Source of the DNA: an uncultured Lachnospiraceae bacterium
Lineage (GTDB): Bacteria > Bacillota > Clostridia > Lachnospirales > Lachnospiraceae
NCBI GenBank assembly: GCA_902762955.1
Contig: CACWQH010000026.1
Coordinates: 1 to 38,886 of the forward strand
Length of the DNA: 38,886 bases
Direction: 5' to 3'
The position numbers and the translations under genes were made by a program. This document shows positions 568 through 33,891 of the stretch, piece by piece. The notes beneath the pieces were generated by a model. That model worked only from the letters and a program-made list of their open reading frames with translations, had not been told where the DNA came from and searched no databases. How positions within the stretch are numbered: the first letter of the stretch is position 1; each line of letters begins with the position of its first letter.

Positions 568-3500
568 GTGAAAGTTTTAAAAAGGCTAATGGCTATGCTT
601 GTTTGCGTATGTATGATTGTGCCAAATGTCGGTATTACTTCATATGCAGCGGAGCAGACGGAAATTACTGAAGAAATCGCAGCTAATGAAGCTGCCAATG
701 ATGAAAATGATTTGGATAATGTGACAAATGCAGCAGAATCGATGGATTCAACAAGCAATGCGAACACTGCTGACGAAGTTTCAATTGAGGAAGAAGAAAC
801 CTCACCGGAACTTTCTGATGAAATAACAGAAGAGTCATCACCGGAACTTTCTGATGAAATATCAGTTGAAGAATTATATGGTGCTTCTTCTGAAACGGAT
901 AATGCATTAACTCTTAATTATCTGGTTATCGAAAATGATTATGTTGAAACTCCGAGCTCACAGTATGTTGTAGCAAGCTTGGGCGTTGAGGGTGCCGGAA
1001 TCACAAGTGCAGTTCTTACATATACCAATCATACTACAGGTGCAAGCTACACAAAGTCGGCTGATAAGATTCAGGATTTTCTTATCCTTTTTGATTTATA
1101 TTTTGGCGATTCATCCTATGCCGGACAGTACAAGCTTATCAACATAAGCTACACTGTAGCAGACAGTGAATATATAATTAATCTTGAGGATGAGGGTGTA
1201 AATGGCGTATTTGGTGTAGACCAGACCGTTGATATCGCTCCATCCGCATGGCTTGTAGATGACAATTCAGGTGCATCCTCCGAGTCTTCGGCAGATGTAC
1301 CGGGTGTTATAGTAAATGATGTATCCGGCGCAAGCGTTTCTGCCGGTGACGTGGAGACAGCTCTTGCTGAAAATGGATACACTGATGTAAAGATTGAGGG
1401 TTCAACCTATTATTATGATGAAGACTTCAACGAATCAGTGGTTTCTGCCGATCCGTCAAGCTTCATAGTAGTGCTTGATCCGGGACACGGACTTGGTGAT
1501 TCCGGTGCAACACGTACTCATAATGGCGTAACATATGTTGAAAGAGACCTTAACCTTAAGATTGCTTTTGCGTGCAAGGCAGAACTTGAAAAAAGCGGTG
1601 TAACCGTATATATGACACGAACTGACAATAATACTCTGCCTAGCCTTACAGAGCGTGCACAGATAGCATATGACCATGGCGCAGATCTTTTCATAAGCAT
1701 TCATAATAATTCTCAGACAGCTGATACCGCTACCGGTTCAGAGGTTTGGGTTCCAAACTCAAGCCCATACAATTATTATGCATATCAGACAGGACAAGCT
1801 CTCGGCAATGATATTATAAATCAGCTTGGTTCACTCGGATTAACTAAGAGAGGCGTATTTACAAGAAATGCTACCGATGGCGATACATATCCTACAGGCG
1901 ATACATCCGATTATTATACAGTAATAAATGAGTCAAGAAGAAGAGGCATCCCGGGCATTATAATCGAGCATGCTTATGTCTCAAATCCTTCTGATGCTGC
2001 TAATTTCCTCAGCTCAGATGCGAAGCTTCAGGCACTTGGTGCTGCAGATGCAAAGGGAATTCTCGAGTATATCAAGTCCGCTGATGAAAATTACATTTAT
2101 CAGGGCATAGATTATAGTCCTGTATATGATTATGATTATTACATAGCAAAATATCCTGATGTAAAAAATGCTTTTGGCAACAGTAAAGCAAAGGTTCTTG
2201 AACACTTTGTAAATTACGGTATGAAAGAAAGAAGACAGGCAAAGGCAACCTTTAATGTTAATTATTATATGAATAGATATGCCGATTTAAAGGCAGCATT
2301 TGGTACAGACTATCCGAAGTATTATATGCATTTTATAAAAAATGGTAAGAAAGAATACAGAGTAGGTTATGATGCGGATGGAACAGGAATACCTGCAGAT
2401 ACTTCAACCAACAATACTGATACCAATACCAATAAAAACACAAATACAAATACTAACACCAACACCGATACGGGTACCAAACCGGCAGAAAAGACATACG
2501 AGCCGGCAATTTACAACGGTGTAGATTATGGTCCGGTTTACAATTATGAATATTACATAAACAGATATCCTGATTTGAAGGCTGCTTTCGGATCCAATAA
2601 GGATGCAGCACTTGCTCATTTCGTAAATAATGGAATGAGAGAAGGCAGACAGGCCAGTGAAGATTTTGATGTCTTTTCATATAAAAATTCATATCCTGAT
2701 TTAAAAAAGGCATTTGGCAATGATTTACCATCCTATTATAAGCATTATCTGAACAATGGTATAAAGGAAGGTCGTACTAAGACAACCGGTGTTACTGAGA
2801 TTTTATATCCGGATACCATATATAATGGAGTTGATTACAGTGCAGTTTATGATTTCAACTTTTATGTAAATAAATATCCTGATATCAAGGCTGCATTTGG
2901 AAACAATGACACTGCAGTTCTTGCCCATTTTGTAAATAACGGAATGAAAGAGGGTAGACAGGGATGTGCAGACTTTGATGTGAAGTCTTACAGAAATGCA
3001 TATCAGGATTTGAGAAAAGCTTTTGGTACAAATTATACCTTATATTACCTTCACTATATAAAATCCGGAAAGAAGGAAAACAGAAAGGCTACAGGCGTAA
3101 CCACTTTGCAAAATGCAGTTACTGTTTATAACGGAGTTGATTACAGCAAGGTATATGATTATAACTATTACTTAAATAAGTATCCTGATATTAAAACAGC
3201 CTTTGGCGGTGATGAAAATAAGACACTTGCGCATTTTGTAAATAACGGAATGAAAGAAGGCCGTCAGGCAAAGGAAAGCTTTAATGTAACCTATTACAGA
3301 GCTAATTACGGAGATTTATCCACCGCCTTTGGAACAAATCTTCCGGCATATTACATACATTACATAAACAGAGGACAAAACGAAAAGAGAGTTGCAGACA
3401 GACTTCTTACAGTAAGCTCCGGTACAACCGCAATTATGGGAGACCCAAATACTTCAGTGGCACAGATGGTAGCTTATTATAAGGCAAAAGCAACCTATCC

Positions 3501-3951
3501 GGCGTATTATGCTGATTCGGATGCACCTACTATCGAGGCATTTTGCCAGATTTACTATGAGGAGTGTGTAGCAGAGGGCGTTAGAGTTGACGTGGCATTT
3601 TGTCAGTCTATGAAGGAAACAGGCTTCCTTAGATATGGCGGACAGGTAAGCATAGAACAGTACAATTTTGCAGGACTTGGCGCAACAGATGATGGAGCAA
3701 ACGGAGCATCCTTTGATACCGTCAGACTTGGAATAAGAGCTCATGTTCAGCACCTTAAGGCATATGCTTCCAAGAACGCACTTGCAAATGCGTGTGTGGA
3801 TCCAAGATTTGATCTTGTAACAAGAAATTGTGCACCTTATGTAGAATGGCTTGGTATTCAGGAAAATCCTTACGGCAAAGGCTGGGCAACAGCTAAAGGA
3901 TATGGATACAGCATAATAAACGATTACATAGCACAGCTTAGAAAATATTAG
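568..3951 (+). CDS. Secreted bifunctional N-acetylmuramoyl-L-alanine amidase / glucosaminidase with repeat modules
   Basis: A 1127-residue secreted peptidoglycan hydrolase. A signal peptide (residues 1-27, cut after SYA) leads to an acidic Ser/Glu-rich stretch in which a SPELSDEI segment is duplicated. Residues ~300-480 form an Amidase_3 (zinc amidase) domain: DPGHG with His307, Glu325, His379 in SIHNN and Glu467 in IIIEHAY give the complete zinc and catalytic set. Residues ~510-945 hold four ~90-residue units of the type YNGVDYSxVYDYNYY...AFG...AHFVNNGMKEGRQ, with a TNTNT linker near 612-640. Residues ~955-1127 are a GH73-type glucosaminidase (candidate catalytic Glu1017 in MKETGF). It should cut both the stem amide and the glycan strand during wall turnover. 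The start is GTG, chosen for GAGGGA six bases upstream and the intact signal peptide. The next gene shares the repeats. Confidence 0.9.
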   Translation: MKVLKRLMAMLVCVCMIVPNVGITSYAAEQTEITEEIAANEAANDENDLDNVTNAAESMDSTSNANTADEVSIEEEETSPELSDEITEESSPELSDEISVEELYGASSETDNALTLNYLVIENDYVETPSSQYVVASLGVEGAGITSAVLTYTNHTTGASYTKSADKIQDFLILFDLYFGDSSYAGQYKLINISYTVADSEYIINLEDEGVNGVFGVDQTVDIAPSAWLVDDNSGASSESSADVPGVIVNDVSGASVSAGDVETALAENGYTDVKIEGSTYYYDEDFNESVVSADPSSFIVVLDPGHGLGDSGATRTHNGVTYVERDLNLKIAFACKAELEKSGVTVYMTRTDNNTLPSLTERAQIAYDHGADLFISIHNNSQTADTATGSEVWVPNSSPYNYYAYQTGQALGNDIINQLGSLGLTKRGVFTRNATDGDTYPTGDTSDYYTVINESRRRGIPGIIIEHAYVSNPSDAANFLSSDAKLQALGAADAKGILEYIKSADENYIYQGIDYSPVYDYDYYIAKYPDVKNAFGNSKAKVLEHFVNYGMKERRQAKATFNVNYYMNRYADLKAAFGTDYPKYYMHFIKNGKKEYRVGYDADGTGIPADTSTNNTDTNTNKNTNTNTNTNTDTGTKPAEKTYEPAIYNGVDYGPVYNYEYYINRYPDLKAAFGSNKDAALAHFVNNGMREGRQASEDFDVFSYKNSYPDLKKAFGNDLPSYYKHYLNNGIKEGRTKTTGVTEILYPDTIYNGVDYSAVYDFNFYVNKYPDIKAAFGNNDTAVLAHFVNNGMKEGRQGCADFDVKSYRNAYQDLRKAFGTNYTLYYLHYIKSGKKENRKATGVTTLQNAVTVYNGVDYSKVYDYNYYLNKYPDIKTAFGGDENKTLAHFVNNGMKEGRQAKESFNVTYYRANYGDLSTAFGTNLPAYYIHYINRGQNEKRVADRLLTVSSGTTAIMGDPNTSVAQMVAYYKAKATYPAYYADSDAPTIEAFCQIYYEECVAEGVRVDVAFCQSMKETGFLRYGGQVSIEQYNFAGLGATDDGANGASFDTVRLGIRAHVQHLKAYASKNALANACVDPRFDLVTRNCAPYVEWLGIQENPYGKGWATAKGYGYSIINDYIAQLRKY

Positions 3952-20485: not shown

Positions 20486-20512
20486 AAGATAGTAAAGTAT
20501 AAAGTATTTTAT

Positions 20513-20741
20513 GGGATAGGCAACATATTACACTGAATAAGAGCCTCCTTGTTAGCATTTAGTCCAATTTGCGTTAAATCAAAAGTGAAAATTCGCATAT
20601 AGGTGCGTAAAAAATCGAACTGTTTGAGCGTTAGCGAGTTTTCGATTTTTAGCACCTATAAAGAATTGAACGCTTTGATTTAGCAAATTGATGACTAGCT
20701 AACAAGGAGGCTCTTATTCAGTGTAATATGTTGCCTATCCC
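20513..20741. repeat. 229-bp inverted-repeat element (copy 1 of a dispersed family)
   Basis: The outer arms, 20513-20556 and 20698-20741, are perfect reverse complements over 44 bp. The inner ~140 bp is also self-complementary but imperfect and carries GAGCGTTAGCGAG at its apex (20627-20637 is AGCGTTAGCGA). The inner part (about 20551-20700) is clearly related, in inverse orientation, to 35816-35965. It lies between the convergent hicB and PLP-enzyme genes and may work as a two-way terminator, although it has no classic T run. Confidence 0.85.
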
Positions 20742-20751
20742 TATTACAAAT

Positions 20752-21804
20752 TTATAAAAGCTCAAGTATTGTATTTACCAGCAGATCGTTTTGCTTAGGC
20801 TTCATAAAACAAAAGCGTATGTATTTGTTGTCAAGCCCGTGGAAGTTGGAGCAATTACGGATGATGATTCCTTTGGTGCGGCAGTGCTCTTCGATAGCTT
20901 GTGCAGAAAGGTCATCCTTTAAAATCTTAACGAGCATAAAATTGGCATAAGGCTTGAAAAGCTTTACGTTTTTGTTCGTATTCATAGCAGAGAATATAAG
21001 GTTTCTCTCGGTATGAATCTGTGAACGTGATTCTTCGATATATTTTTTATCCTTAAACATAGCTGTGCAGGCTGCGGCGGTAAGAGTCGAAATCTTGTTA
21101 GGGGCAACCGTTATCGATATCATCTCCAGATGTGATGGATTGCTTATAATTGAGTACGAGAGTCTTAGTCCCGGTACTGCAAAGAATTTGGAAACACTTC
21201 TTAATACAGCTATATTGTCAAATTCCTTTACAAGAGGAGTGCTTGTAAGCTTTTCGTAATCCTCTGTAAATTCGATATACATTTCATCTATGATAAGGAA
21301 TATTTCAAGCTCCTTACATACCTCGGCGATAAGCTCCATATCCGCTCTGCTTATAATCTGTGAAGTAGGGTTGTTAGGATTGCCGAGTATTATCATATCA
21401 TATGATGAGTCAAGTCCTGATATGAAATCTTTGATATCAGGTACATAGTTTTTTTCTTCATCAAGCTCATAATATGAAACCTCGCATCCGTATATGGATA
21501 GTACTCTTTCATATTCTGTAGCGGTAGGTGAAAGTATCAGTGCTTTTTGAGGTATGATTAGTGAGCAGTAAAGTCTTAGCATATCTGAAAGTCCATTGCC
21601 GAGAACTATATTTTCTTCTTCTGCTCCGGAGTAAAGAGATATGGACTTTTTTAAATCTCCATAGTACTCTGACGGATACCTTATTATACTGTCTAAATTT
21701 TCACTAAGAGCTTTTTTTACTGATTCAGGAACACCCATAGGATTTAGATTTGAATTGTATAAAACAGTATCCAATTGCTCGATTCTTAAAGGCGCTTTTG
21801 CCAT
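20752..21804 (-). CDS. Fold-type I PLP aminotransferase (histidinol-phosphate / threonine-phosphate decarboxylase-like)
   Basis: A 350-residue class I/II PLP enzyme. Family marks: the N-terminal NLNPMGVPESVKKAL and RYPSEYYGDLKK, GNGLSDMLRLYC, LGNPNNPTSQ and the Schiff-base lysine in SVSKFFAVPGLRLSY. RFCFMK near the end fits the substrate-carboxylate/phosphate arginine region. The overall style is that of HisC and CobD, but neither histidine nor cobamide genes are nearby, so the substrate is open. GGAGGG is eight bases before the ATG. The gene is divergent from the DUF5717-like gene, and a minus-strand extended -10 promoter lies at 21888-21916. Confidence 0.8.
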   Translation of the reverse strand: MAKAPLRIEQLDTVLYNSNLNPMGVPESVKKALSENLDSIIRYPSEYYGDLKKSISLYSGAEEENIVLGNGLSDMLRLYCSLIIPQKALILSPTATEYERVLSIYGCEVSYYELDEEKNYVPDIKDFISGLDSSYDMIILGNPNNPTSQIISRADMELIAEVCKELEIFLIIDEMYIEFTEDYEKLTSTPLVKEFDNIAVLRSVSKFFAVPGLRLSYSIISNPSHLEMISITVAPNKISTLTAAACTAMFKDKKYIEESRSQIHTERNLIFSAMNTNKNVKLFKPYANFMLVKILKDDLSAQAIEEHCRTKGIIIRNCSNFHGLDNKYIRFCFMKPKQNDLLVNTILELL

Positions 21805-21840
21805 ATGTGAACCCTCCCGACTTATAAATTATATTTTTAT

Positions 21841-21869
21841 TTGTATTCATTTCATTTTTTTGTTATAAT
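21841..21869 (+). promoter_or_regulatory. Predicted promoter 1 of the DUF5717 operon
   Basis: TTGTAT (21841-21846), a 17-bp spacer and TATAAT (21864-21869) with an extended TGT before the -10. A second extended -10 (TGCTATAAT, 21920-21928, weak -35 TTTAGT at 21900-21905) lies closer to the gene. The start at 21979 would have a leader of about 45 to 100 bases. Confidence 0.5.
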
Positions 21870-21876
21870 GTACTTT

Positions 21877-21897
21877 GTGGTATTAGCATTATACCAC
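21877..21897. promoter_or_regulatory. Inverted repeat GTGGTAT-N7-ATACCAC between the divergent genes
   Basis: A perfect 7-bp inverted repeat just after the first plus-strand promoter. The same bases contain a minus-strand extended -10 (TGGTATAAT; TATAAT at 21893-21888), with a -35 TTGCCT at 21916-21911 and a 17-bp spacer, suited to the PLP-enzyme gene. A regulator bound here could affect both directions. Confidence 0.45.
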
Positions 21898-21978
21898 AAT
21901 TTAGTATGCTAGGCAATTGTGCTATAATCATTTGACTGGCATATTTGACAGAAAAAATTATTGTGGTTGGAGAAACAA

Positions 21979-24900
21979 ATGAAAGCTGTTGTAGAGCATT
22001 ACGCAAAGGGAGAATTTCAGATTGACAGACCGATTATTGAAATCTCCGAAGAGCAATTAAAACTTAATATAGAATCCGGAACCGTATATGAGGGTTCTTT
22101 TAATGTTAAAAGTACAAATGATCATATAATCAAGGCTATGGTTTATGACAGCCGTTATACCTTGAGGTTTGATAACCATACATTTATCAGCAGAAGCTTT
22201 GATGTAACATACTCCTTTGATGCTACCTGTCTTGAAGCCGGCAAAAGCTATAAGGGACATATAAGCATTATCTCTGATGGTGGAGAGTTTAAGATTCCGT
22301 ATGACATCGAGGTTGTTACTCCGTATGTAAAGTATGGCGATGAAAAGATTGATGATTTGTTTAAGTTCGCGAGTCTTGCAGAGAGCAACTGGAGCGAGGC
22401 TGCAAAGATATTTGTAAGGGATGATTTTAAGAGAACCTTTATAAATAAGGAACCTATTGTTAAAAATATTTACGGTAGTCTTATGGCCAGCCTTTCTGTC
22501 AATCAGGCGCTGGAGGAGTTCCTTGTTTATGTACACAAAAAGCGTGCACTTACACTTTCTGTTTCAAAGGCTAAGATAAATGTTGAGATGCCGACGGAGC
22601 TTTCGCGTATCTCGATTAACATCAGCAAGAATACCTGGGGATTTACAAACTCCACCGTTCGTTCGCTGGATGATTTTTTGGTGCCTGCTAAGAAGAATAT
22701 TACAAGCAATGATTTCTATGGTAATTTATTTGCCTTAGATGTACTTATATCTCCGGAAAATGTTCCGGAAGGTGTTACCTCAGGTAAGATTGTTATAGAA
22801 AATATTTATCAAAAGATTGAGGTCGTTATAAATCTTATCAAGCCTCAGTCCAAAAATATTGTATCGCCGAGAACCGGCAATAAAAACCATATGGTCAATA
22901 ACAATAAGGTAAGACTTGTTAAGACTTATCTCAATTATCGTATGGACAGGCTTTCCTTAAAGGACTATGTTTCCAATACTTTGTTTGCATTTGAAAACCT
23001 TGCAAGATATGTGCCTGAGGAGGATATGTACAGACTCGGTATCATGCATATGAATATCATGCAGGATGAGCTTACCAAGGTTGAGCAGGAGTTCCTTCGT
23101 ATCGAGGCGGACGTGGACAACACGCTTATGAACAATATGCAAAGATGCTACTATGAGTATCTTAAGGCGCTTGTTTTAAAGGATGAGGAAACCATCAATC
23201 ATGCGAGAAATACCATAAGAAGAAATTTCAGAACCGAAAAGGATAAGATGTTTTATTTCTGGCTTTTGCTTTTTATGGATGATACATATACAGAGGATCA
23301 GGGCTCCCTTTACAAGGAGATTATAAACCTTTATGAGGAAGGCTATAACAGTCCGATTATGTACCTTGAGCTCTGTGAGATATTTAACAATAATCCGCTT
23401 TTGTTTAAACGCATTACACCTCTTGAGACTACAACCATCAGATGGGGCCTTAGACATAAGTTTATCTCGGATGAGGTTATAGACGAGTTTATCCGTCTTG
23501 CCGGTACATTTAAAGAGTTTAATACCAAGATATTTAATATCATGGAAGCTATATATGAAAAGACCAAGAGTGAAGAGGTCTTAAAGAGCATATGTGCCAT
23601 GCTTATAGGTGCGGGCAAGCTCGATCATAAGTATCATAAGTATTACAGGGATGCGGTTGAGAAGAATCTTAAATTTATCGGTCTCAATGAGTGCTTTGTC
23701 AAGAGTATGAACTTCTCAAGATATGACCTTATACCTACTTCTGTACTTATGTATCTTAATTACAAGAACACTCTTAATGAGAGTGAGCTTGCATACCTTT
23801 ATGCCAACGTTATCTACAACAAGGCACAGCATATGAAGGTTTACCATGAGTATTGTACCACCATGGAAGATTTCATGGAAAATATGATTATCAAGGGCAG
23901 GGTTAGTGATGACCTTACAGTCCTTTATGACGAATTTTTGGAGCCTGAGAGTGTAAGCCCTCTCTATGCGGGAAAGCTTATCAATATCATTTTCAGACGT
24001 AAACTTGTCTGCTATAACAAGGGAATAAGAGCGGTTATCGTTACTCATCAGGAGATAGAAGAGGTTCAGCGTGTACCTATCGTAAATGGTGAGGCTTATG
24101 TTGAAATTCTTTCCAATACCGCGTCCATCGTATTTGAGGATGGAGAAGGAAATGTGTATGCCGGTTCTATCCCTTACAGGCTGGAAAAGATTGTGGATGA
24201 GAAGGCTTACATGCCTATCTGCCACGAGTACAGTCCGAGAGATTACAGAGTGCTTCTTGATAATTATCAGTCGCTTGGTGACTTTACTTATAAGAGGGCA
24301 ATAGAGGTAAATGCTGCAAGAGATATAATCAACTGTGATCAGATTTCTTATGATTACAAGCAGCAGGCACTTTTAAATATTATTGAATACTATCATGAAA
24401 ATCTGGATGCAGAGGTACTTAAGAAGTATCTTGAAAAGCTGGATATCGAGTATTTGAATCATTCAAATGCAAGAAGTATCATCATGTACATGATTGATAT
24501 GAATATGTTTGACAAGGCTTTCCAGGCAGTTAAGCTCTACGGCTTTGATGAGATTGCATCTGATGAGTTATACAGACTTGCTGATTACGGTGTAGAGGAT
24601 TCAAACGGATTCTTAAATGAAGACCTTATGTCTATATGTATTCAGCTTTACAAGACAGGTAAGGTCAACAGCAGGATTCTTGTGTATATTATGAACAATT
24701 TCAAGGGTGACCTTGAAGAGCTTGCGACACTCTTTAAGATGGCAAGAGATAAGGTAAGGGATGTATCCTTGCTGGTTGAAAATACTCTTGCACAGATGAT
24801 GTTTGCCAATGGAAATGTAGAAAATATCTACGATATATTTACCGCTTACTACGGTGGAAGAAGCAGAGGACTTGTAGTTAAGGCATTCCTCAGATATACT

Positions 24901-25548
24901 GCACAGAATTATCTTATTAAGGATGCACAGGTTCCGGGCAACATATTTGACTGCCTCTATATAGAGATTTTAAAGGGTAATATAGATGATGAGATTTCCA
25001 AGATGGCGCTTATAGCACACCTTAGCAAGCTTGATAAGTTTACAATCGAGCAGCGTGAATGGATAAGTGATACAGTCGGTAAGTTCATGGATGGAGGTAA
25101 GATACTTCCGTTCTACAAGAGCTTCAGAAGCTTTATCAAGCTTCCGCAGGATGTATTTCTTAAAACCTATCTTATATACAAGTCAGACGTGGGTAAGCAG
25201 ATCGAGGTTAAATATGCCTTTGATACCGGTACCAGACAGTCCTTAAGCTTCAAGACAGAGAGACTCGATGAAATGATTCCGGGTATGTATGTCAAGGAAT
25301 TTGTTGTATTCCACGGTGAAAGACTGGTTTATAAGATTGATGAGGATAAAGATAACAAGGCATATGTGGTCGAAAGTGAAACCTTAAAGACCAAGTCCTT
25401 TAACCGTAAGGACAGAAGCCGATTTGAGATTATCAACAGCATGCTGGTTAATCAGGAAATGCGTGAGGATAATGAGCTTCTTGAAACCCTGGATGTATAC
25501 TTTAACACAGTTCATCTGTATGAGGAGAATTTAAATATTATATACTAA
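21979..25548 (+). CDS. DUF5717-like giant protein (1189 residues)
   Basis: A large soluble protein with no signal peptide or clear membrane helix, resembling (from memory) the Lachnospiraceae DUF5717 family. The ATG at 21979 follows GGAG by six bases; an upstream TTG is less likely. Residues ~10-115 look like an Ig-like beta sandwich (PIIEISEEQLKLNIESGTVY through GGEFKIPYDIEV), and a second similar beta domain ends near residue 290. Residues ~330-680 and ~780-1090 are long helical-repeat stretches of TPR/alpha-solenoid type; between them is a short beta-rich part (residues ~670-740). The C-terminus is again beta-rich (LVYKIDEDKDNKAYV). It looks like a scaffold that binds proteins. It leads a four-gene run with an Hsp70-fold protein, a TPR-like protein and a membrane coiled coil. 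Function unknown. Confidence 0.75.
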   Translation: MKAVVEHYAKGEFQIDRPIIEISEEQLKLNIESGTVYEGSFNVKSTNDHIIKAMVYDSRYTLRFDNHTFISRSFDVTYSFDATCLEAGKSYKGHISIISDGGEFKIPYDIEVVTPYVKYGDEKIDDLFKFASLAESNWSEAAKIFVRDDFKRTFINKEPIVKNIYGSLMASLSVNQALEEFLVYVHKKRALTLSVSKAKINVEMPTELSRISINISKNTWGFTNSTVRSLDDFLVPAKKNITSNDFYGNLFALDVLISPENVPEGVTSGKIVIENIYQKIEVVINLIKPQSKNIVSPRTGNKNHMVNNNKVRLVKTYLNYRMDRLSLKDYVSNTLFAFENLARYVPEEDMYRLGIMHMNIMQDELTKVEQEFLRIEADVDNTLMNNMQRCYYEYLKALVLKDEETINHARNTIRRNFRTEKDKMFYFWLLLFMDDTYTEDQGSLYKEIINLYEEGYNSPIMYLELCEIFNNNPLLFKRITPLETTTIRWGLRHKFISDEVIDEFIRLAGTFKEFNTKIFNIMEAIYEKTKSEEVLKSICAMLIGAGKLDHKYHKYYRDAVEKNLKFIGLNECFVKSMNFSRYDLIPTSVLMYLNYKNTLNESELAYLYANVIYNKAQHMKVYHEYCTTMEDFMENMIIKGRVSDDLTVLYDEFLEPESVSPLYAGKLINIIFRRKLVCYNKGIRAVIVTHQEIEEVQRVPIVNGEAYVEILSNTASIVFEDGEGNVYAGSIPYRLEKIVDEKAYMPICHEYSPRDYRVLLDNYQSLGDFTYKRAIEVNAARDIINCDQISYDYKQQALLNIIEYYHENLDAEVLKKYLEKLDIEYLNHSNARSIIMYMIDMNMFDKAFQAVKLYGFDEIASDELYRLADYGVEDSNGFLNEDLMSICIQLYKTGKVNSRILVYIMNNFKGDLEELATLFKMARDKVRDVSLLVENTLAQMMFANGNVENIYDIFTAYYGGRSRGLVVKAFLRYTAQNYLIKDAQVPGNIFDCLYIEILKGNIDDEISKMALIAHLSKLDKFTIEQREWISDTVGKFMDGGKILPFYKSFRSFIKLPQDVFLKTYLIYKSDVGKQIEVKYAFDTGTRQSLSFKTERLDEMIPGMYVKEFVVFHGERLVYKIDEDKDNKAYVVESETLKTKSFNRKDRSRFEIINSMLVNQEMREDNELLETLDVYFNTVHLYEENLNIIY

Positions 25549-25559
25549 GGAGGCTTTTC

Positions 25560-26813
25560 ATGGCAGAAGCGTATTTTATAGGAATGGACCTTTGCCCTGA
25601 GTCCACTCAGATAAGCTTTTATAATGATATTAAGCGTGAACCGGAGACGGTTAATCAATTAAATAATAAAGAGACCTATATGATGCCTAACATTCTCTTC
25701 TACAGTAAAAAAACCGGAGACTGGTATGTGGGTTCTGAAGCTTCGGAGGCCAGATTTAAGGAAGAGGGTATTATCCTTGATGAGCTTTATGACAATGCCA
25801 GAAGTGAGGAGCAGGTTGAGATAGGTGACAAGAGTTATACTTACAGGCAGCTCTTTCTTATGATGCTTAAGATGCATATAGATTCATTTCTTTACAGATA
25901 TGAGGGAGCGGTTGTTAAAAAGCTGGTTATAACCGTACCGGATTACAGTAGGGATTTATATAAGGTACTTGGCACACTGCATAAAGAACTTGGTGTGGAT
26001 AAAAGCTGCATCAGTCTTACAAGCCACCTGGACAGCGGACTTTATTATATCTTTAATCAGAGTCCCGACCTTTGGGTAAACAGTGTTGCACTTTTTGATT
26101 ATAATACAGACGGACTTCAGTATTACAGAATTGACATATCGAGAGGAAGAAATCCTGAGATTATTCAGGTTTCCCACGAGGATTATACCAAGCAGTTTAA
26201 TATGTCCATGTTTGCGGGAGATAATATCCTTATGGATGTTACATTTTCAAAAATCGTCGAGCATGAGATGAAGAAGACCTACATTTCCTCTGTCTTTCTT
26301 ACCGGACTTGGTTTCTCGGAGAAATGGATGAACAAGTCCCGCAACCTTTTGTGTCAGGGAAGAAGAGTTTTTGCAGGACAAAATATCTACACCAAGGGTG
26401 CCTGCTATAAGGCTGTCGGTGGTGAGTATGAGGAGTTTTATAAAAAGTATTTTGTTGAAACAGAAGAAAATGTTTTATTTGATATAGGCATTTCAAGTGG
26501 TGATGAGGAGGATGAGTTTATCCCGATCGCACTTGGCGGCCGTCAGTGGTACAATATCAAGGGTAAGATAAGTGTTATTCTTGATGATACGGATATTGTA
26601 ACCATTATTTACAGAAGCAGGGTAACTGATCAGGAAATCAGGGAGAGTGTCAAGCTTCACGGCATCCCTAAGAGACCAAATAAGACCTCTAAGTTTTCTA
26701 TCGAGGTTGAGTTTGAATCTCCAAATAAGGGCGCTGTTATCATCAAGGATTTGGGATTTGGAAAGCTCTTCCCGACTACGAACAAGATATATCGTAAGGA
26801 GTTTGAGGTATAA
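25560..26813 (+). CDS. DUF5716-like protein with Hsp70/actin fold
   Basis: A 417-residue soluble protein resembling (from memory) DUF5716. Its first ~290 residues follow the order of an Hsp70/actin ATPase. FIGMDLCPESTQISFYN takes the place of phosphate loop 1 (GIDLGTT), PNILFYS then DWYVGSEA resembles the Hsp70 PS-x-V then VG-AK segment, LVITVPDYSRDLYKVLG is like AVITVPAYF, VALFDYNTDGLQYYRID takes phosphate loop 2 (DLGGGT), and VFLTGLGFSEKWMN resembles the adenosine motif GG-x-SR. Several glycines of the loops are lost, so ATP binding may be altered. The last ~100 residues are beta-rich. AAGGAGG overlaps the end of the upstream gene, and the stop overlaps the next ATG by one base. The fold call is by pattern only. 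Confidence 0.75.
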   Translation: MAEAYFIGMDLCPESTQISFYNDIKREPETVNQLNNKETYMMPNILFYSKKTGDWYVGSEASEARFKEEGIILDELYDNARSEEQVEIGDKSYTYRQLFLMMLKMHIDSFLYRYEGAVVKKLVITVPDYSRDLYKVLGTLHKELGVDKSCISLTSHLDSGLYYIFNQSPDLWVNSVALFDYNTDGLQYYRIDISRGRNPEIIQVSHEDYTKQFNMSMFAGDNILMDVTFSKIVEHEMKKTYISSVFLTGLGFSEKWMNKSRNLLCQGRRVFAGQNIYTKGACYKAVGGEYEEFYKKYFVETEENVLFDIGISSGDEEDEFIPIALGGRQWYNIKGKISVILDDTDIVTIIYRSRVTDQEIRESVKLHGIPKRPNKTSKFSIEVEFESPNKGAVIIKDLGFGKLFPTTNKIYRKEFEV

Positions 26814-27646
26814 TGTCAAAGGTATTGTTATGTACAACTAAAGAGGCATCTCATCCGTTTATATTTTTAAATACAAAGGTTGAGATAAATACATATGAAG
26901 AGCTTTGCTTTTATATTTACAATAATACTGTGCTCATAAGCAAGTCCTCGATTTCCGATAAGCTTTTTGACTGGATAAGGGACGAGCTTGACATGCCGCA
27001 GCTTGCAGCTAAGCTTGTTGCACTTTCCAACAAGACCACCTATGTGCAGGATCTTCTGGTGGAGATTTTAAATGAGGGTGATTATTACGAGGCAGATGAG
27101 ATAACAACCTATATAGAAGCATGGCAGAAGTACAGAAAGCTTTCGCCAAACCAGAGGAAGAAGCTTAAGGCAGACGGCTATCTTGGATACAGAAGATATA
27201 TCAAGGCTGCATCTATCTATGAAGAAATTCTTGAAGAAAAAGACAGTATAGAGGATAAGGTATTTATAGGAAATGTATATCATAACAGGGCGGTTGCGGC
27301 TGCCAATAATTTAAATACCGAAGAGGCAAAAAGATATTTTCTTAAGGCATATGAGCTTAATCAAAATGAAGAGTCATTAAGAAGCTATCTCATAGTGTTT
27401 GCATCCACCAGTGATACAGCTGCGTTAAAGCAGGAGATGCGCAAATTTGATCTGGGTGAGGATGAGTTTGAAAGTCTTATGATTGAGATAGGAGATTCAA
27501 ACGAGGATGTCAGAGAGATGACTATCTACTCCATGCTTCAAAGAGCTATATATAACAGAATGAACAAGGATATGATTGACTACGATAAAAGAATGGATAT
27601 TATACTTGGTCAGCTTAAGGATGAATTCAGAGAGCAGGCGATTTAG
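26813..27646 (+). CDS. TPR-like protein of the DUF5717 operon
   Basis: A 277-residue soluble protein. The N-terminal ~95 residues are mixed alpha/beta (KVLLCTTKEASHPFIFLNT, INTYEELCFYIYN). From about residue 100 it is all helical, with TPR-like pairs: GYRRYIKAASIYEEILEEKD, then VFIGNVYHNRAVAAANNLNT, then EEAKRYFLKAYELNQNEES. TPR proteins commonly hold Hsp70 clients or partners, which fits the Hsp70-like neighbour. Its ATG overlaps the upstream stop (TAATG), a strong sign of coupled translation. No family name is recalled with confidence. Confidence 0.7.
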   Translation: MSKVLLCTTKEASHPFIFLNTKVEINTYEELCFYIYNNTVLISKSSISDKLFDWIRDELDMPQLAAKLVALSNKTTYVQDLLVEILNEGDYYEADEITTYIEAWQKYRKLSPNQRKKLKADGYLGYRRYIKAASIYEEILEEKDSIEDKVFIGNVYHNRAVAAANNLNTEEAKRYFLKAYELNQNEESLRSYLIVFASTSDTAALKQEMRKFDLGEDEFESLMIEIGDSNEDVREMTIYSMLQRAIYNRMNKDMIDYDKRMDIILGQLKDEFREQAI

Positions 27647-27723
27647 AAGATTAAAGATTTTTTCGGCTTGATGATAAAAGGCCGGATATTATCGTAAGGA
27701 TAAGTTAAAAAGTAGGCGGTTAG

Positions 27724-29013
27724 ATGGGTTTATTTGATAAATTTAAGGATTATCTTAACGAGGAGCCTGAGGACGATATAGACGAGGCGGAGGCAGAAGA
27801 AAAAAGACAAAAGCAGGCTGCGTTAAAGGAAAGAAAAGAACAAAGAAAAGCAAGAAAAAAAGCGAGAAAAGCTGCTTCGGAGGATAATGATGATATCATC
27901 AATATGGAGAAGGAGCTTAAGTCTGTAAAGGCAACTAAAAAATCCGACAATGAAAGAGCTATTGTCAAGGATGTATGCGAGCAGCTTGTGGATGTTTCAT
28001 ATCATATGGAGGATATGAAGCAGGAGTACAAGGTTGTTACGGATTATCTTGTGGACATACAAAGGATAGATGAGCTTCCGATACAGATGGCAAATGATCT
28101 TATAGATACGGCTAAAAGCATAGAGCTTTTGGAAAGAGATAAACAAAAATATCTTGCTTCGGAAAACCTGTTATCCATGGAGCAGTATAACCGCATTTCC
28201 ATGTATGAGGATGATGTCATAAAGACCGTCAAGGAACTAAATGAAATGGAGATGCGTGACGGTCTGTTAAAGAGCGACATGGGTTATCTTGAGGGCGAGA
28301 AGGAAGATTTGGAATACTTAAGAGACGAATATGCCGATAGTATCACAAGGATACGTGGTATCATGATTGGCGTATTTTTAGTTTGCTTTGCTGCCATGGC
28401 GGGCTTACTTATTTTTGCCTTGGGAAAGCGGGAAAATGTAACCGTGTATGCACTCGGAGTAGGTGCTATGCTTATGATTGCATTTGCCATAGCATATGTA
28501 AAATATCTGGATTATAACAATGATATAAGAGATATAAATGCCAAGCATAAAAAGGCGGTTTCGCTTCTCAATAAGGTCAAGGTAAAATATATAAATAATG
28601 TAAATGCCATGGATTATCTATATGAAAAATTCGGAGTCAATTCCTGTAAGGAGCTTGAGTACCAGTGGGAGCAGTACAATACTATGGTAAGTGATGCACT
28701 TAAGTATTCAAGAACCAATAAGGATCTTAGATTTTTCAAAGAGCAGCTTATAGATAAGCTTAAAAGGATTGGCGTAAGTGATGCGGAGGTCTGGACAAGG
28801 CAGACCAATGCTCTTATAGACAGACGTGAGATGGTGGAGATAACACACGGTCTCAATGTCAGAAGACAAAAGCTTAGGGAAAAGCTTGCCACCTGTGATA
28901 AGATTAAAAATAATGCGACTACAGCTCTTAAGGCAGCTATTGAGGAAAAGCCGGAGCTTAAGGCTTACGTGGCAGAGATACTTGAGTCTTACAGACTAAG
29001 TCTTGAAAATTAG
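27724..29013 (+). CDS. Membrane coiled-coil protein closing the DUF5717 operon
   Basis: A 429-residue protein. After a short motif (GLFDKFKDYLNEE) comes an extremely charged Lys/Glu/Ala coil (residues ~20-75), then a long coiled coil to residue ~200. Two membrane helices follow at ~208-232 (GIMIGVFLVCFAAMAGLLIF) and ~239-260 (YALGVGAMLMIAFAIAYVK), with a very short outer loop, and then another long coiled coil to the C-terminus. Both coiled-coil arms therefore face the cytosol and could bring the soluble partners of the operon to the membrane. It begins 77 bp after the TPR gene with no terminator between; weak symmetry CGGCTT/AGGCCG lies in the gap. Function unknown. Confidence 0.72.
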   Translation: MGLFDKFKDYLNEEPEDDIDEAEAEEKRQKQAALKERKEQRKARKKARKAASEDNDDIINMEKELKSVKATKKSDNERAIVKDVCEQLVDVSYHMEDMKQEYKVVTDYLVDIQRIDELPIQMANDLIDTAKSIELLERDKQKYLASENLLSMEQYNRISMYEDDVIKTVKELNEMEMRDGLLKSDMGYLEGEKEDLEYLRDEYADSITRIRGIMIGVFLVCFAAMAGLLIFALGKRENVTVYALGVGAMLMIAFAIAYVKYLDYNNDIRDINAKHKKAVSLLNKVKVKYINNVNAMDYLYEKFGVNSCKELEYQWEQYNTMVSDALKYSRTNKDLRFFKEQLIDKLKRIGVSDAEVWTRQTNALIDRREMVEITHGLNVRRQKLREKLATCDKIKNNATTALKAAIEEKPELKAYVAEILESYRLSLEN

Positions 29014-29041
29014 TTGAATTATTAAAGAAAAGTGATATAGT
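29014..29041 (+). promoter_or_regulatory. Predicted promoter of valS
   Basis: TTGAAT (29014-29019), a 16-bp spacer and TATAGT (29036-29041). The leader is then only ~50 bases, too short for a T-box riboswitch. Confidence 0.4.
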
Positions 29042-29098
29042 TATCTGATAATGTGATAATAATAAATTTTATATACATAACCGGAGGATTTTTAAATT

Positions 29099-31756
29099 AT
29101 GGCTAAGGAACTTGAAAAAAATTACAACCCGTCTGAGATTGAGGAAAGGATTTATAAAAACTGGGTTGATAAGAAGTATTTTCATGCGGAGGTAGATAGA
29201 AGCAAAAAGCCTTTTACTATCGTTATGCCACCGCCAAATATAACAGGACAGCTTCATATGGGACATGCTCTTGACAATACCATGCAGGACATTCTTATAA
29301 GATTTAAGAGAATGCAGGGTTATAATGCACTGTGGCAGCCGGGTACCGACCATGCGGCTATCGCTACAGAGGTTAAGGTTATTGAGTCCTTAAAGGAGCA
29401 GGGAATCGACAAGCAGGATCTTGGTCGTGAGGGCTTTCTCGAAAAGGTTTGGGACTGGAGAAGAGAGTATGGTGGACGTATCGTAAACCAGCTTAAGAAG
29501 ATGGGTTCTTCTGCTGACTGGGACAGAGAACGTTTTACTATGGATGAAGGCAATAACAAGGCCGTTACAGAGGTTTTCTGTAAGCTCTATGATAAGGGAC
29601 TTATATATAAGGGATCAAGAATTGTAAACTGGTGCCCTGTATGTCAGACAACTATTTCGGATGCAGAGGTTATCCATGAGGAGCAGCAGGGTAATTTCTG
29701 GCATATCAATTATCCTGTAGTTGGTGAGGAAGGAAGATATGTAGAGATTGCAACTACAAGACCTGAAACTCTTCTTGGTGATACTGCTGTTGCGGTAAAT
29801 CCCGATGATGAAAGATATCAGGATATAATCGGAAAGATGCTCAAGCTCCCTCTTACAGACAGAGAGATTCCTGTAATTGCAGATGCTTATGTTGATAAGG
29901 AGTTTGGAACAGGCTGTGTTAAGATTACACCTGCACATGACCCTAACGACTTTGAGGTTGGTAAGAGACATAACCTCGAAGAGATAAATATAATGAATGA
30001 TGATGCTACCATCAATTCTATCGGCGGCAAGTACGCAGGCATGGACAGATACGAAGCAAGAAAGGCAATGGTAGAGGATTTAGAGGCACAGGGACTTCTT
30101 GTAAAGGTTGTACCTCATACTCATATGGTTGGTACTCATGACAGATGTAAGACTACCGTTGAGCCGCTTGTTAAGCCTCAATGGTTTGTAGCTATGGAAG
30201 AGATGGCTAAGCCTGCAAAGCAGGCAGTTGTTGACGGAAAGCTCAAACTTATCCCTGAAAGAATGGATAAGACTTATTATAACTGGCTTGATAATATAAG
30301 AGACTGGTGTATCTCAAGACAGCTTTGGTGGGGACACAGAATCCCTGCATGGTACTGTCAGGATTGTGGAGAGACTATCGTTAGAAGGGAAACTCCGTGT
30401 GAATGTCCTAAATGTAACAGCAAGAATTTAAAGCAGGATGAGGATACTCTTGATACCTGGTTTTCATCGGCACTCTGGCCGTTTAGTACTCTTGGCTGGC
30501 CCAAAAAGACAGAGGACTATGATTATTTCTTCCCGACTGATGTGCTTGTAACGGGCTATGATATCATTTTCTTCTGGGTTATAAGAATGGTATTTTCATC
30601 TATCGAGCAGACAGGAAAGCTTCCATTCCATACTGTGCTTTTCCACGGTCTTGTAAGAGATGATCAGGGAAGAAAGATGAGTAAGTCTTTGGGTAACGGT
30701 ATCGATCCTCTTGAGGTTATCGAAAAGTATGGCGCGGATGCTTTGAGATTTACTCTTGTAACAGGAAATGCTCCGGGTAACGATATGCGTTTTTACTGGG
30801 AGAGAGTTGAGGCAAGCCGTAACTTTGCCAATAAGATATGGAATGCTTCAAGATTTATCATGATGAATATTGAAAAAGCAGATATAAAGGATGTAACTCT
30901 TGATAAGCTTACCTTGGCTGACAGATGGATCTTATCCAAGATGAATTCTCTTGTAAAAGAGGTTACTGACAATATGGAAAAATATGAGCTTGGTATAGCT
31001 GTATCAAAGCTTTATGATTTCATCTGGGAGGAGTTCTGCGATTGGTACATCGAGATGGTTAAGTCAAGGCTTTGGAATGATGAGGATGATACCAAGGCAG
31101 CAGCACTCTGGACGCTTAAGACAGTACTTATCAATTGTCTTAAACTGCTTCATCCGTATATGCCGTTTGTAACCGAGGAAATCTATGGTTCGCTTACAGA
31201 CGGTGACGATTCCTATGAGGAGTCAATTATGATTTCAAAGTGGTCTGAGTTTAAGGCAGAGTATGTATTTGCTGATGATGAGGCTGCGGTTGATAAGATC
31301 AAGGAAGCAGTAAGAAGCATAAGAAATATAAGAAGTGAAATGAATGTTGCTCCAAGCAAGAAGGCAACAGTATATGTTGTATCTGCTAAGAAGGAGATAA
31401 GAGATATATTTGAAGTAAGTAAGAGCTTCTTTGCAATGCTCGGATATGCAAGTGATGTAATTATCCAGGAAGATAAGTCAGGTATAGCGGATGATGCTGT
31501 ATCGGTGGTTATACATGATGCTGCACTCTATATGCCGTTTGCGGAGCTTGTTGATATCGAAAAAGAGCTTGAGAGATTAAATAAGGAAAAGGCAAGACTT
31601 GAAGGAGAGATAAAGAGAGCTTCGGGTATGCTTAACAATCCTAAGTTTGTTGATAAGGCACCGGCTGCCAAGGTTGAAGAGGAAAAGGCTAAGCTTAAGA
31701 AGTATACCGAGACTTTGGAACAGGTAGCTGATAGAATCGCCCAACTTAATAAGTAG
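29099..31756 (+). CDS. valS: Valyl-tRNA synthetase
   Basis: An 885-residue class Ia aminoacyl-tRNA synthetase, the usual bacterial length. It charges tRNA-Val using ATP in the cytosol. HMGH at 53-56 (after PPPNITGQL) and KMSKS at 526-530 form the ATP site. [15 protein letters not shown] and the following ~150 residues are the editing domain (CP1) that removes mischarged threonine. A four-cysteine zinc insert is at ~418-445 (CQDCGE then CPKC), and [17 protein letters not shown] follows it. The C-terminal ~65 residues are the ValRS coiled coil ([17 protein letters not shown]). A strong GGAGG precedes the ATG. The four-gene DUF5717 unit ends 85 bp upstream. Confidence 0.97.
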
Positions 31757-31884
31757 GATAAACTTTGTAAAAAGCGAGCGGATAGTGATTAAGAGTTGGT
31801 GTTTGTAAATTGAATGAATCATGATTAAGAGATAGTGTTTTTATCTTAATCTGATTATAAGGATTCGGTTTTGTGGAGAAAACT

Positions 31885-33891
31885 ATGGATAGTGAAAAGT
31901 TACTAAAACGAAAAATTGAACAGCTTCTTATCATACCGACTGCGGCATCTCTTTTGCTGGTTGGTATGTGTGTGGTTTTATTTCTCATAAATAATAAATG
32001 TGCAATCATTGCAAGTATGGTTGTCGGTACATTTATTGTAATTGAGGTTGTTATCCTTATATGGGGTAAGACTGCACTTTCTCCACTTTTGTTTAATTTT
32101 TCGATGCAGCACAGTCAGGTGCAAAAGCAGCTTCTGGATGAATTTGCGGTTCCGTATGCGATTATAGATATCGACGGTAAGGTGTTGTGGGGCAATGCTC
32201 CATTTGTTGATATCTTCGGAGAAGGCATCAAAAAACGTGTAAAACGTAATATTTCTGCATTCTTTCCGGAGGTAACAGAAGAACTTTTAAATTCGTCGGA
32301 GGATGTAAGCATCGACCTTTCTTATGACGAGGTTGAGTACAATGCATTGATTAAAAAGATTAACAATGAGGATGGAGAGGTTATCGCCTTTTACCTTTTT
32401 GATGTAACCGAGTTAAAGAGATACAAACGTGAAAATGTAGAGCAAAAGCTTGTTTCGGGACTTATCTATATAGATAATTACGATGAGGTCATGGACAATA
32501 CCGAGGAGGTCAGACACTCCCTTGTTGAGGCGCTTGTAGACAGACGAATTAACATGTACCTTAGCACCATCGATGCGATTGGAAAGAAGATAGAGAAGGA
32601 TAAATATTTCTTCGTTTTCAGACAGAAGTTTTTGCCACAGCTTAAGGAAACCAAGTTCGCTATCTTAAGTGAGATAAAGAGTATAAATGTTGGAAATGAG
32701 ATTCCGATTACCCTTAGTATAGGTATCGGTGCCGATACGGACAGCTTTAGCGAGGCATACGAATACAGCCGTACTGCAATCGGTATGGCGCTTGCCCGGG
32801 GCGGCGACCAGGTTGTTGTCAAGTATGGTGACAAGATTACGTACTTTGGTGGTAACAGTGCCGGAACCGAAAAGAGTACAAGAGTTAAGGCAAGAGTTAA
32901 GGCACAGGCCTTTAAGGAGCTTCTTGCCAATAAAGACAATGTTATGATTATGGGACATAAGCGTCCGGATGCGGATGCATTTGGTTCGGCTGTCGGTGTT
33001 TACCGCCTGGTTAAAACTCTTGGCAGAAATGCACACATTGTTTTAAATGAGGAAACTGCCGCAATTAAACCTATGGTCAGCGGATTTAAGGGTAACAGTG
33101 TATATGGTGATGATTTGATTATCTCCAGCGAGCAGGCTATCAATACGATAAATGATGATACGCTTGTAGTTGTTGTTGATGTAAACAGACCGAGCATGAC
33201 AGAGTGTGAGGAGCTTTTGTCACTGGCTAAAAGTGTGGTTGTTTTTGATCATCACAGACAGGCCAATGAAAAGATTGAAAATGCTACTCTTTCTTATATT
33301 GAGCCTTATGCTTCCTCTGCCTGTGAGATGATTTCCGAGATGCTTCAGTATATAGAGGAAAAGGTTAAGATAAGACCTGTTGAGGCTGATGCAATGTACG
33401 CAGGTATTGTTATCGATACTGACAATTTCCTTACCAAAACCGGTGTAAGAACCTTTGAGGCGGCTGCATACTTAAGAAGATGTGGCGCTGATGTTACAAG
33501 GGTAAGAAAGATGTTCAGAGAGAATATGGATTCCCATAAGCTTTTGGCTGAGGGAGTTATAAACTCCGAAATATATAAGAATCAATTTGCGATATCAAAG
33601 GTTGATCCTGAAGGAGTTGAAGCACCTACCGTCATGGCGGCAAAGGTCGCAAATGACCTCCTGGATATAGACGGTGTGAGGGCATCATTTGTAGTAACAC
33701 ATCAGGAGGATACCGCTTATATAAGTGCCCGTTCCGTAGACGATATGAATGTTCAGGTAGCTATGGAAAAGCTTGGCGGAGGTGGACATGCCAATGTGGC
33801 AGGTGCACAGCTTAAGGGTGAGTCAATCGAATCCGCAGTTGCAAAGATTAAAGAATTACTAGACGAGATGTACAAGGAAGGAGATATATAG
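31885..33891 (+). CDS. gdpP: GdpP-type cyclic-di-AMP phosphodiesterase (DHH/DHHA1)
   Basis: A 668-residue membrane enzyme. The ATG at 31885 follows GGAG by six bases; a GTG 12 bases upstream is less likely. Two N-terminal membrane helices (residues ~12-65) precede a PAS-like domain (VPYAIIDIDGKVLWGNAPF) and a degenerate GGDEF domain lacking the GG(D/E)EF signature, as usual in GdpP. The DHH phosphoesterase part has GHKRPDADAFGSA (His358, Asp362, Asp364), VFDHHRQ (455-457) and the DHHA1 GGGGHANVAGAQL (His635). It hydrolyses c-di-AMP to pApA, controlling turgor and wall stress responses. The rplI start is four bases after the stop, the classic gdpP-rplI-dnaB arrangement. Confidence 0.94.
   Translation: MDSEKLLKRKIEQLLIIPTAASLLLVGMCVVLFLINNKCAIIASMVVGTFIVIEVVILIWGKTALSPLLFNFSMQHSQVQKQLLDEFAVPYAIIDIDGKVLWGNAPFVDIFGEGIKKRVKRNISAFFPEVTEELLNSSEDVSIDLSYDEVEYNALIKKINNEDGEVIAFYLFDVTELKRYKRENVEQKLVSGLIYIDNYDEVMDNTEEVRHSLVEALVDRRINMYLSTIDAIGKKIEKDKYFFVFRQKFLPQLKETKFAILSEIKSINVGNEIPITLSIGIGADTDSFSEAYEYSRTAIGMALARGGDQVVVKYGDKITYFGGNSAGTEKSTRVKARVKAQAFKELLANKDNVMIMGHKRPDADAFGSAVGVYRLVKTLGRNAHIVLNEETAAIKPMVSGFKGNSVYGDDLIISSEQAINTINDDTLVVVVDVNRPSMTECEELLSLAKSVVVFDHHRQANEKIENATLSYIEPYASSACEMISEMLQYIEEKVKIRPVEADAMYAGIVIDTDNFLTKTGVRTFEAAAYLRRCGADVTRVRKMFRENMDSHKLLAEGVINSEIYKNQFAISKVDPEGVEAPTVMAAKVANDLLDIDGVRASFVVTHQEDTAYISARSVDDMNVQVAMEKLGGGGHANVAGAQLKGESIESAVAKIKELLDEMYKEGDI

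Follow-up and report, generated by a model that had tools for sequence, protein, structure and literature searches.

We analyzed a 38,886-nucleotide stretch (the window; contig CACWQH010000026.1) from an uncultured bacterium whose family we take to be Lachnospiraceae, labeled f1 here, and focused on four adjacent genes in it: those for a DUF5717 scaffold, a DUF5716 protein, a tetratricopeptide repeat (TPR) protein and a membrane hairpin protein. The first three are retained together in nearly the whole family. DUF5716 is a degenerate Hsp70, and the trio looks like what is left, without the motors, of a larger set of Hsp70 chaperone genes that other families of the order possess. We consider it about an even chance (probability about 0.5) that the unit is a membrane-linked pseudo-Hsp70 co-chaperone scaffold, working in the manner of Ssz1 in the ribosome-associated complex (RAC) without being a member of that complex.

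Conservation of the three-gene unit in Lachnospiraceae

The family was surveyed in 120 genomes, one from each of 120 genera. DUF5717 is present in 116 of them, DUF5716 in 117 and the TPR protein clearly in 116, the other four giving only weak, general TPR matches. Each genome has one locus. The three genes are contiguous and co-oriented in 112/120 genomes, which excludes chance as the source of the arrangement; in the remaining four DUF5717-bearing genomes one gene of the trio lies on another contig. The hairpin protein was clearly found in 53 genomes (one further weak match, the 54th, is uncounted); in 52 of these 53 its gene is found downstream of that for the TPR protein, and all four genes are contiguous in 49/120. 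The first-pass annotation had presented a four-gene unit. This holds for the first three genes and not for the fourth, and the fixed unit is three genes, not four.

Moreover, DUF5716 and the TPR protein form a single open reading frame (ORF) of 684–723 residues in four genera (G503, G463, G507 and G480; loci L183, L184, L185 and L186). These fusions argue for direct contact between the two proteins, and they tie two of the four genes directly to each other, as expected from the earlier proposal that all four encode parts of one machine. DUF5717 and DUF5716 are both missing from three genomes (G466, G527 and G534), which offer a natural contrast set, while G459, a 67% complete genome, lacks DUF5717.

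DUF5716 is a degenerate Hsp70

The AlphaFold2 model of DUF5716 is confident (pLDDT 90.4) and contains an actin/Hsp70-type nucleotide-binding domain (NBD) at about residues 3–289 and the beta part of a substrate-binding domain (SBD-beta) at about residues 297–416. Among the 50 Foldseek matches listed, 49 are titled Hsp70, Hsp110 or RAC, and the 50th is a ciliary central-pair chain; all 50 matches listed in the VIA search bear such titles, and there SBD-beta aligns with DnaK and Ssz1. The helical lid (SBD-alpha) is absent from the model, which ends at residue 417 with the beta domain and has no C-terminal helix. What had been described as an Hsp70/actin-like subunit thus has the Hsp70 fold and can be narrowed to a degenerate Hsp70 that keeps its SBD-beta.

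The canonical ATP motifs were represented by three regular expressions (phosphate-1, phosphate-2 and adenosine). None of the three matches any of 37 DUF5716-type rows (34 genes) from inside and outside Lachnospiraceae; 5 of the original 42 rows, being stretch ends or split ORFs, had been removed as fragments of other Hsp70s. All three motifs were matched in 78 of 85 rows of the other Hsp70s of the larger operon. Since the motifs are lost in every DUF5716-type row, whether from Lachnospiraceae or not, the degeneracy of this paralogue is older than the reduction in the family. In addition, one stretch of the NBD measures 14–31 residues in Lachnospiraceae against 86–96 in 18 proteins of other families in the alignment, and our reading of the alignment is that the shortened part is probably subdomain IIB. 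In Hsp70, subdomain IIB is a contact surface for GrpE.

A larger multi-Hsp70 operon in other families of the order

In an order-level sample of 146 genomes, DUF5717 was found in 75, namely 15 Lachnospiraceae and 60 genomes of other families. DUF5717 and DUF5716 therefore occur beyond one bacterial family, and their description as Lachnospiraceae families in the first-pass annotation does not stand. We then read the extended neighborhoods of 20 DUF5717 loci, all from other families of the order, and 18 of them hold a full operon set in one neighborhood, with DUF5717 at its head: DUF5717 (often split into about 400 + 900 residues), Hsp70-a (about 558 residues), a GrpE-domain protein (279–645 residues, with a long N-terminal extension), the DUF5716-type Hsp70-b, Hsp70-c (about 545 residues), Hsp70-d fused to a VWA domain (Hsp70-VWA, about 692 residues) and the TPR protein. 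L070 and L091 are incomplete, the latter because its stretch starts downstream. Pfam confirms HSP70, GrpE and VWA in the operon members scanned, and the hairpin protein is present in 7 of the 20 loci. In one of the 18 (G003 of family f4; L045:142–3321) Hsp70-VWA reads as two ORFs that overlap, and the TPR gene likewise as two ORFs; this copy may be broken or mis-sequenced.

Under strict score limits, Hsp70-a is present in 59/146 genomes, which are 59 of the 60 DUF5717 genomes outside Lachnospiraceae (exception G016). Hsp70-VWA also occurs in 59/146, comprising 58 of those 60 (exceptions G006 and G016) and G122. Neither was found in any of the 15 Lachnospiraceae genomes. In a quick Hsp70 tree, which omits the true Hsp70-b row of L045, Hsp70-a, Hsp70-c and Hsp70-d form separate groups, misbinned fragments aside, and the Lachnospiraceae DUF5716 joins the other Hsp70-b rows on a fully supported long branch from the rest, a placement to be read with a long-branch warning.

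A spread outside the order was rejected for the samples searched. Among 299 genomes of the phylum there are four clear matches, all Lachnospiraceae, and seven others that are short and weak. Hsp70-VWA was found in 0/291 genomes of a class sample, which itself contained no positive, although the probe works in the order sample. A contig search gave 80 loci, in which only L103 (Defluviitaleaceae bacterium) is close to Hsp70-VWA, with 60% identity over query residues 1–358; the other loci show 31–38% identity and are DnaK-like.

Five loci of families f6, f16, f18 and f19 carry a membrane protein just upstream of DUF5717 (L050:3379–4764, L058:12871–14193, L063:1821–2993, L065:6748–7743 and L066:3547–4995). 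These proteins are related to each other and have an N-terminal hydrophobic segment and weak coiled-coil-type matches, and no hairpin gene was seen in the five loci. This suggests a possible alternative anchor and a recurring membrane link.

We found no published description of the larger operon in a literature search that covered neither preprints nor most subscription journals. Among the papers searched, none names DUF5717, and one, unrelated by its title, names DUF5716. In PMC11019930, which surveys how DnaK has been duplicated in bacteria, the main text contains no words beginning Lachno, Clostridi or DUF.

Reduction of the operon in Lachnospiraceae

A ValS tree was built from 28 genomes, the outgroup being two members of the same class (for G126 and G006 no ValS locus was obtained, and they were left out). 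It places Lachnospiraceae inside the order with f4, a family with an intact operon, as sister group (support 100/99). Intact operons are also found on several earlier branches, and genomes without DUF5717 are scattered elsewhere; the tree is of a single gene and some of its branches are weak. Because the family is nested in this way beside an intact-operon sister, it seems to have lost the ATP-motif Hsp70s of the operon. These sequence comparisons are most simply read as showing an old, full operon in the order, from which Hsp70-a, Hsp70-c, Hsp70-VWA and the GrpE-domain protein disappeared in Lachnospiraceae. The TPR proteins of the family also have about 115 residues of repeats fewer than those of other families. 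From the sequence alone, the earlier annotation could not have recognized the unit as what remains of a larger operon with several Hsp70s.

The trio is retained, yet its sequence is not frozen. Between the window and one genome of the same genus, the nonsynonymous rate (dN) is 0.155 for ValS, against 0.175, 0.167 and 0.146 for the three genes of the trio, and it reaches 0.41 in the hairpin protein; the synonymous rate (dS) is saturated, hence no dS value is given. In a compared set consisting of the window, G028, G110, G093, G041 and G003, DUF5717 identity is 70–77% within two genera and 23–28% between genera, against 69–81% for ValS in the same between-genus pairs (for G110 and G093, ValS 81% and DUF5717 26%). 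Episodic change or locus exchange may be the cause of this jump.

The four proteins and their genomic context

The four genes are genuine and their positions exact: their ORF coordinates were reproduced, as was the tight packing, with gaps of 11, −1 and 77 bp. The folds proposed for the other three proteins were also borne out. For DUF5717, the AlphaFold2 model is confident (pLDDT 89.5), and its fold matches give a pair of PapD/ASH-like sandwiches and, after them, a long alpha-solenoid, as expected of a giant beta-sandwich/solenoid protein; beta parts were compared separately up to residue 291. Its length is counted from an ATG, and an alternative TTG lies 6 codons further upstream. Pfam assigns DUF5717_N (E-value 1e-281) and DUF5717 (1e-65) to this protein and DUF5716_C (3e-95) to the second. 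The third protein has only a weak Pfam match to TPR_2 (0.003, below the cut-off); its TPR nature is clear from the match of the family profile to TPR structures, and an N-terminal region of about 110 residues is conserved in the alignment. The fourth protein has no Pfam match over the cut-off. It is a membrane hairpin with coiled coils; its two-helix membrane segment agrees with hydropathy, with adjacent hydrophobic stretches at residues 206–236 and 238–262, and a hydrophobic region of this type is found in 18/18 aligned rows, that of the window included.

Table 1. Features of the three-gene unit, the hairpin gene and the flanking genes in the window
Feature	Position	Strand	Length or residues	Description and basis
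DUF5717 scaffold	21979..25548	+	1189 aa	Pair of PapD/ASH-like beta sandwiches and an alpha-solenoid, with small beta insertions
First PapD/ASH-like sandwich of DUF5717	22030..22317	+	about residues 18–113	
Second PapD/ASH-like sandwich of DUF5717	22546..22851	+	about residues 190–291	
DUF5716 degenerate Hsp70	25560..26813	+	417 aa	AlphaFold2, Foldseek/VIA, motif scan
TPR protein	26813..27646	+	277 aa	Alignment, profile match to TPR structures
Membrane hairpin protein	27724..29013	+	429 aa	Coiled-coil arms; hydropathy, relatives
Two hydrophobic segments of hairpin protein	28339..28509	+	residues 206–262	Hydropathy
valS	29099..31756	+		Downstream neighbor; context only, outside the system
Aminotransferase	20752..21804	−		Divergent upstream neighbor; context, Pfam

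The downstream valS recurs in loci of families f1, f4, f7 and f22, and the upstream aminotransferase gene at 17 loci of families f1, f6, f7, f11, f22 and f24. With these recurring neighbors the locus looks vertically inherited. Directly downstream of valS, Pfam identifies a GdpP-like cyclic di-AMP phosphodiesterase (31873–33891), and a large protein with amidase and glucosaminidase domains is encoded at 568–3951. No Rfam element was found in the window at gathering scores. The region 20500–29400 has two terminator-like sites on the + strand, one ahead of the operon and the other within DUF5717, whereas the spaces separating the four genes and the stretch leading up to valS have none; promoter-like matches number 36, with 30.8 ± 6.8 expected by chance.

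A role in sporulation was rejected, as SpoIVA is present in 80/120 Lachnospiraceae genomes and DUF5717 in 116/120; among the 40 genomes without SpoIVA, G527 alone lacks DUF5717 (lists compared by eye). A mobile origin was rejected as well, with no match on plasmids. Four unannotated records titled "Bacteriophage sp." match DUF5717. The two examined, L225 (MT835486.1) and L226 (MT835988.1), are from human feces, are titled UNVERIFIED and contain all four genes; they are probably bacterial scaffolds filed as phage. Judged by titles and the beginnings of abstracts, no transposon-sequencing data on essential genes of Lachnospiraceae bearing on the unit were found.

Proposed mechanism and alternative explanations

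In the co-chaperone scaffold that we propose, DUF5717 would be a long rod of two sandwiches and a solenoid on which the parts assemble. As DUF5716 has lost the ATP motifs, the lid and, in Lachnospiraceae, probably the exchange-factor-contacting subdomain, it is not expected to cycle like DnaK. By analogy with Ssz1 in RAC it may, with its retained SBD-beta, serve as a static subunit that binds peptides with low affinity or provides docking. The TPR protein would bind DUF5716 directly and connect it to partners, and the hairpin coiled coil, where present, would tether the assembly to the membrane. The ancestor would have had its own ATP-motif Hsp70s, including a VWA-bearing one, as well as a protein with a GrpE domain; these are now gone from the Lachnospiraceae locus, where the general DnaK system would probably provide any ATP-driven step. 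This proposal takes gene order, predicted folds, motif loss, fusions and reduction as its basis; from these we infer complex formation, the membrane tie, a hand-over to DnaK and the existence of a client. More speculative, and to us rather doubtful, is the wider idea that the order harbors a chaperone machine, linked to the membrane and so far undescribed. It would comprise four Hsp70 paralogues, of which one is degenerate and another fused to VWA, together with a dedicated GrpE-domain factor and a PapD/TPR scaffold. Lachnospiraceae would then have discarded the ATP-driven subunits and kept a free-standing, ATP-independent peptide clamp for envelope proteostasis, near-universal and with a core role.

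Several observations weigh against the co-chaperone scaffold. The hairpin protein was clearly found in none of the remaining 67/120 Lachnospiraceae genomes, so that the membrane tie is not universal, and DUF5717 diverges between genera at a pace that is unusual for a core housekeeping scaffold. A scan of the four proteins of the window and of the relatives' operon proteins gave no J-domain protein; it was limited to these components, and the genome may encode a J protein at another site. The GrpE-domain protein and Hsp70-c were seen in none of the Lachnospiraceae loci read, with no whole-genome search made for them. DUF5716 may still bind nucleotide despite the loss of the ATP motifs, the Hsp70-b branches are long, and no CIRCE heat-shock operator is present in the window at up to 3 mismatches.

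A structural assembly without chaperone activity is possible, at odds that we put clearly below even. Here the dead Hsp70 would be a building block, for example of a cortical or envelope-assembly scaffold, which accords with a DUF5716 lacking the ATP motifs, the lid and probably IIB, with the resemblance of the DUF5717 sandwich-solenoid to ciliary ASH/solenoid proteins, and with the membrane hairpin coiled coil and the other upstream membrane protein of five loci. The retained SBD-beta, aligning with DnaK and Ssz1, speaks against it, and the relatives' place in an Hsp70/GrpE operon points to an origin in proteostasis. We regard as very unlikely an actin-like polymer, with DUF5716 filaments organized by DUF5717. 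Actin and the Hsp70 ATPase domain have a common fold, and a coiled coil with a membrane anchor could organize filaments; however, nearly all of the listed fold matches bear Hsp70, Hsp110 or RAC titles, the ATP motifs are lost and SBD-beta is kept. Of the membrane-tied chaperone or polymer-like complex first envisaged, the polymer found no support, while the complex and its chaperone role stay at the level of inference.

Also unlikely is a GAP1-N2-type system (Hsp70, GrpE and FNIII/TPR proteins) for biological conflict or defense against phage. Similar GAP1-N2 neighborhoods are described by Kaur et al. 2020 (PMC7159879), the true Hsp70s of two relatives weakly match the candidate-defense model PDC-M61B in a general Hsp70 stretch, and the much faster divergence of DUF5717 than of ValS between genera slightly raised the low odds that we had given this explanation. 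Against it, no GTPase or GAP1 match was obtained in the window or the relatives' operon proteins scanned, PADLOC gave no match for the four window proteins, no plasmid match was found, and the unit is near-universal in Lachnospiraceae at one locus with neighbors recurring across families. Least credible of all is a decaying leftover without function. Partners and domains were indeed lost in Lachnospiraceae and divergence between genera is fast, but the two DUF genes are kept in almost every genome with one inner stop for DUF5717 (G525) and none for DUF5716 among the matches listed, and dN is near that of ValS between two species of the same genus, where dS is saturated.

Comparison with known systems

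These genes occur in 116–117 of 120 Lachnospiraceae genera, and no described function was found for them in the literature. Seen as what is left of a larger Hsp70/GrpE/VWA operon, namely its pseudo-Hsp70 core, they acquire a testable role, and Lachnospiraceae provide a natural experiment in which a chaperone gene set lost its motors and was still kept.

The nearest published composition met is the Hsp70/GrpE theme of GAP1-N2 neighborhoods. According to Kaur et al. 2020 (PMC7159879), these include Hsp70 and GrpE and, in a subset, an Hsp70 without the peptide-binding domain, along with a protein in which FNIII repeats are fused to DnaJ or TPRs, and membrane links. As described there, GAP1-N2 systems have a GTPase core and variable effectors, whereas no GTPase or GAP1 component was found here; the present set has several Hsp70s, one of them VWA-fused, its degenerate Hsp70 retains SBD-beta, and in Lachnospiraceae it occupies a single near-universal locus per genome.

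With RAC (Ssz1–Zuo1, of eukaryotes) the unit shares an atypical Hsp70, and the best VIA matches of DUF5716 among the matches listed belong to it. Ssz1 binds nascent chains through a rudimentary SBD and acts with a canonical Hsp70, as reported in PMC7083937. Unlike RAC, no J-domain partner was found in the operon proteins scanned, and the scaffold (DUF5717 and TPR) is unrelated; the link to the ribosome is a feature of RAC. The relatives' operon resembles DnaK–DnaJ–GrpE in its ATP-motif Hsp70s and GrpE-domain protein. It differs in having no DnaJ among the proteins scanned and a long N-terminal extension on its GrpE protein, and the unit of the window has no ATP-motif Hsp70. Finally, the window proteins are members of Pfam DUF5716 (PF18980) and DUF5717 (PF18983/PF18984), whose descriptions give no function; the Hsp70 fold, the operon and its reduction are results of the present analysis.

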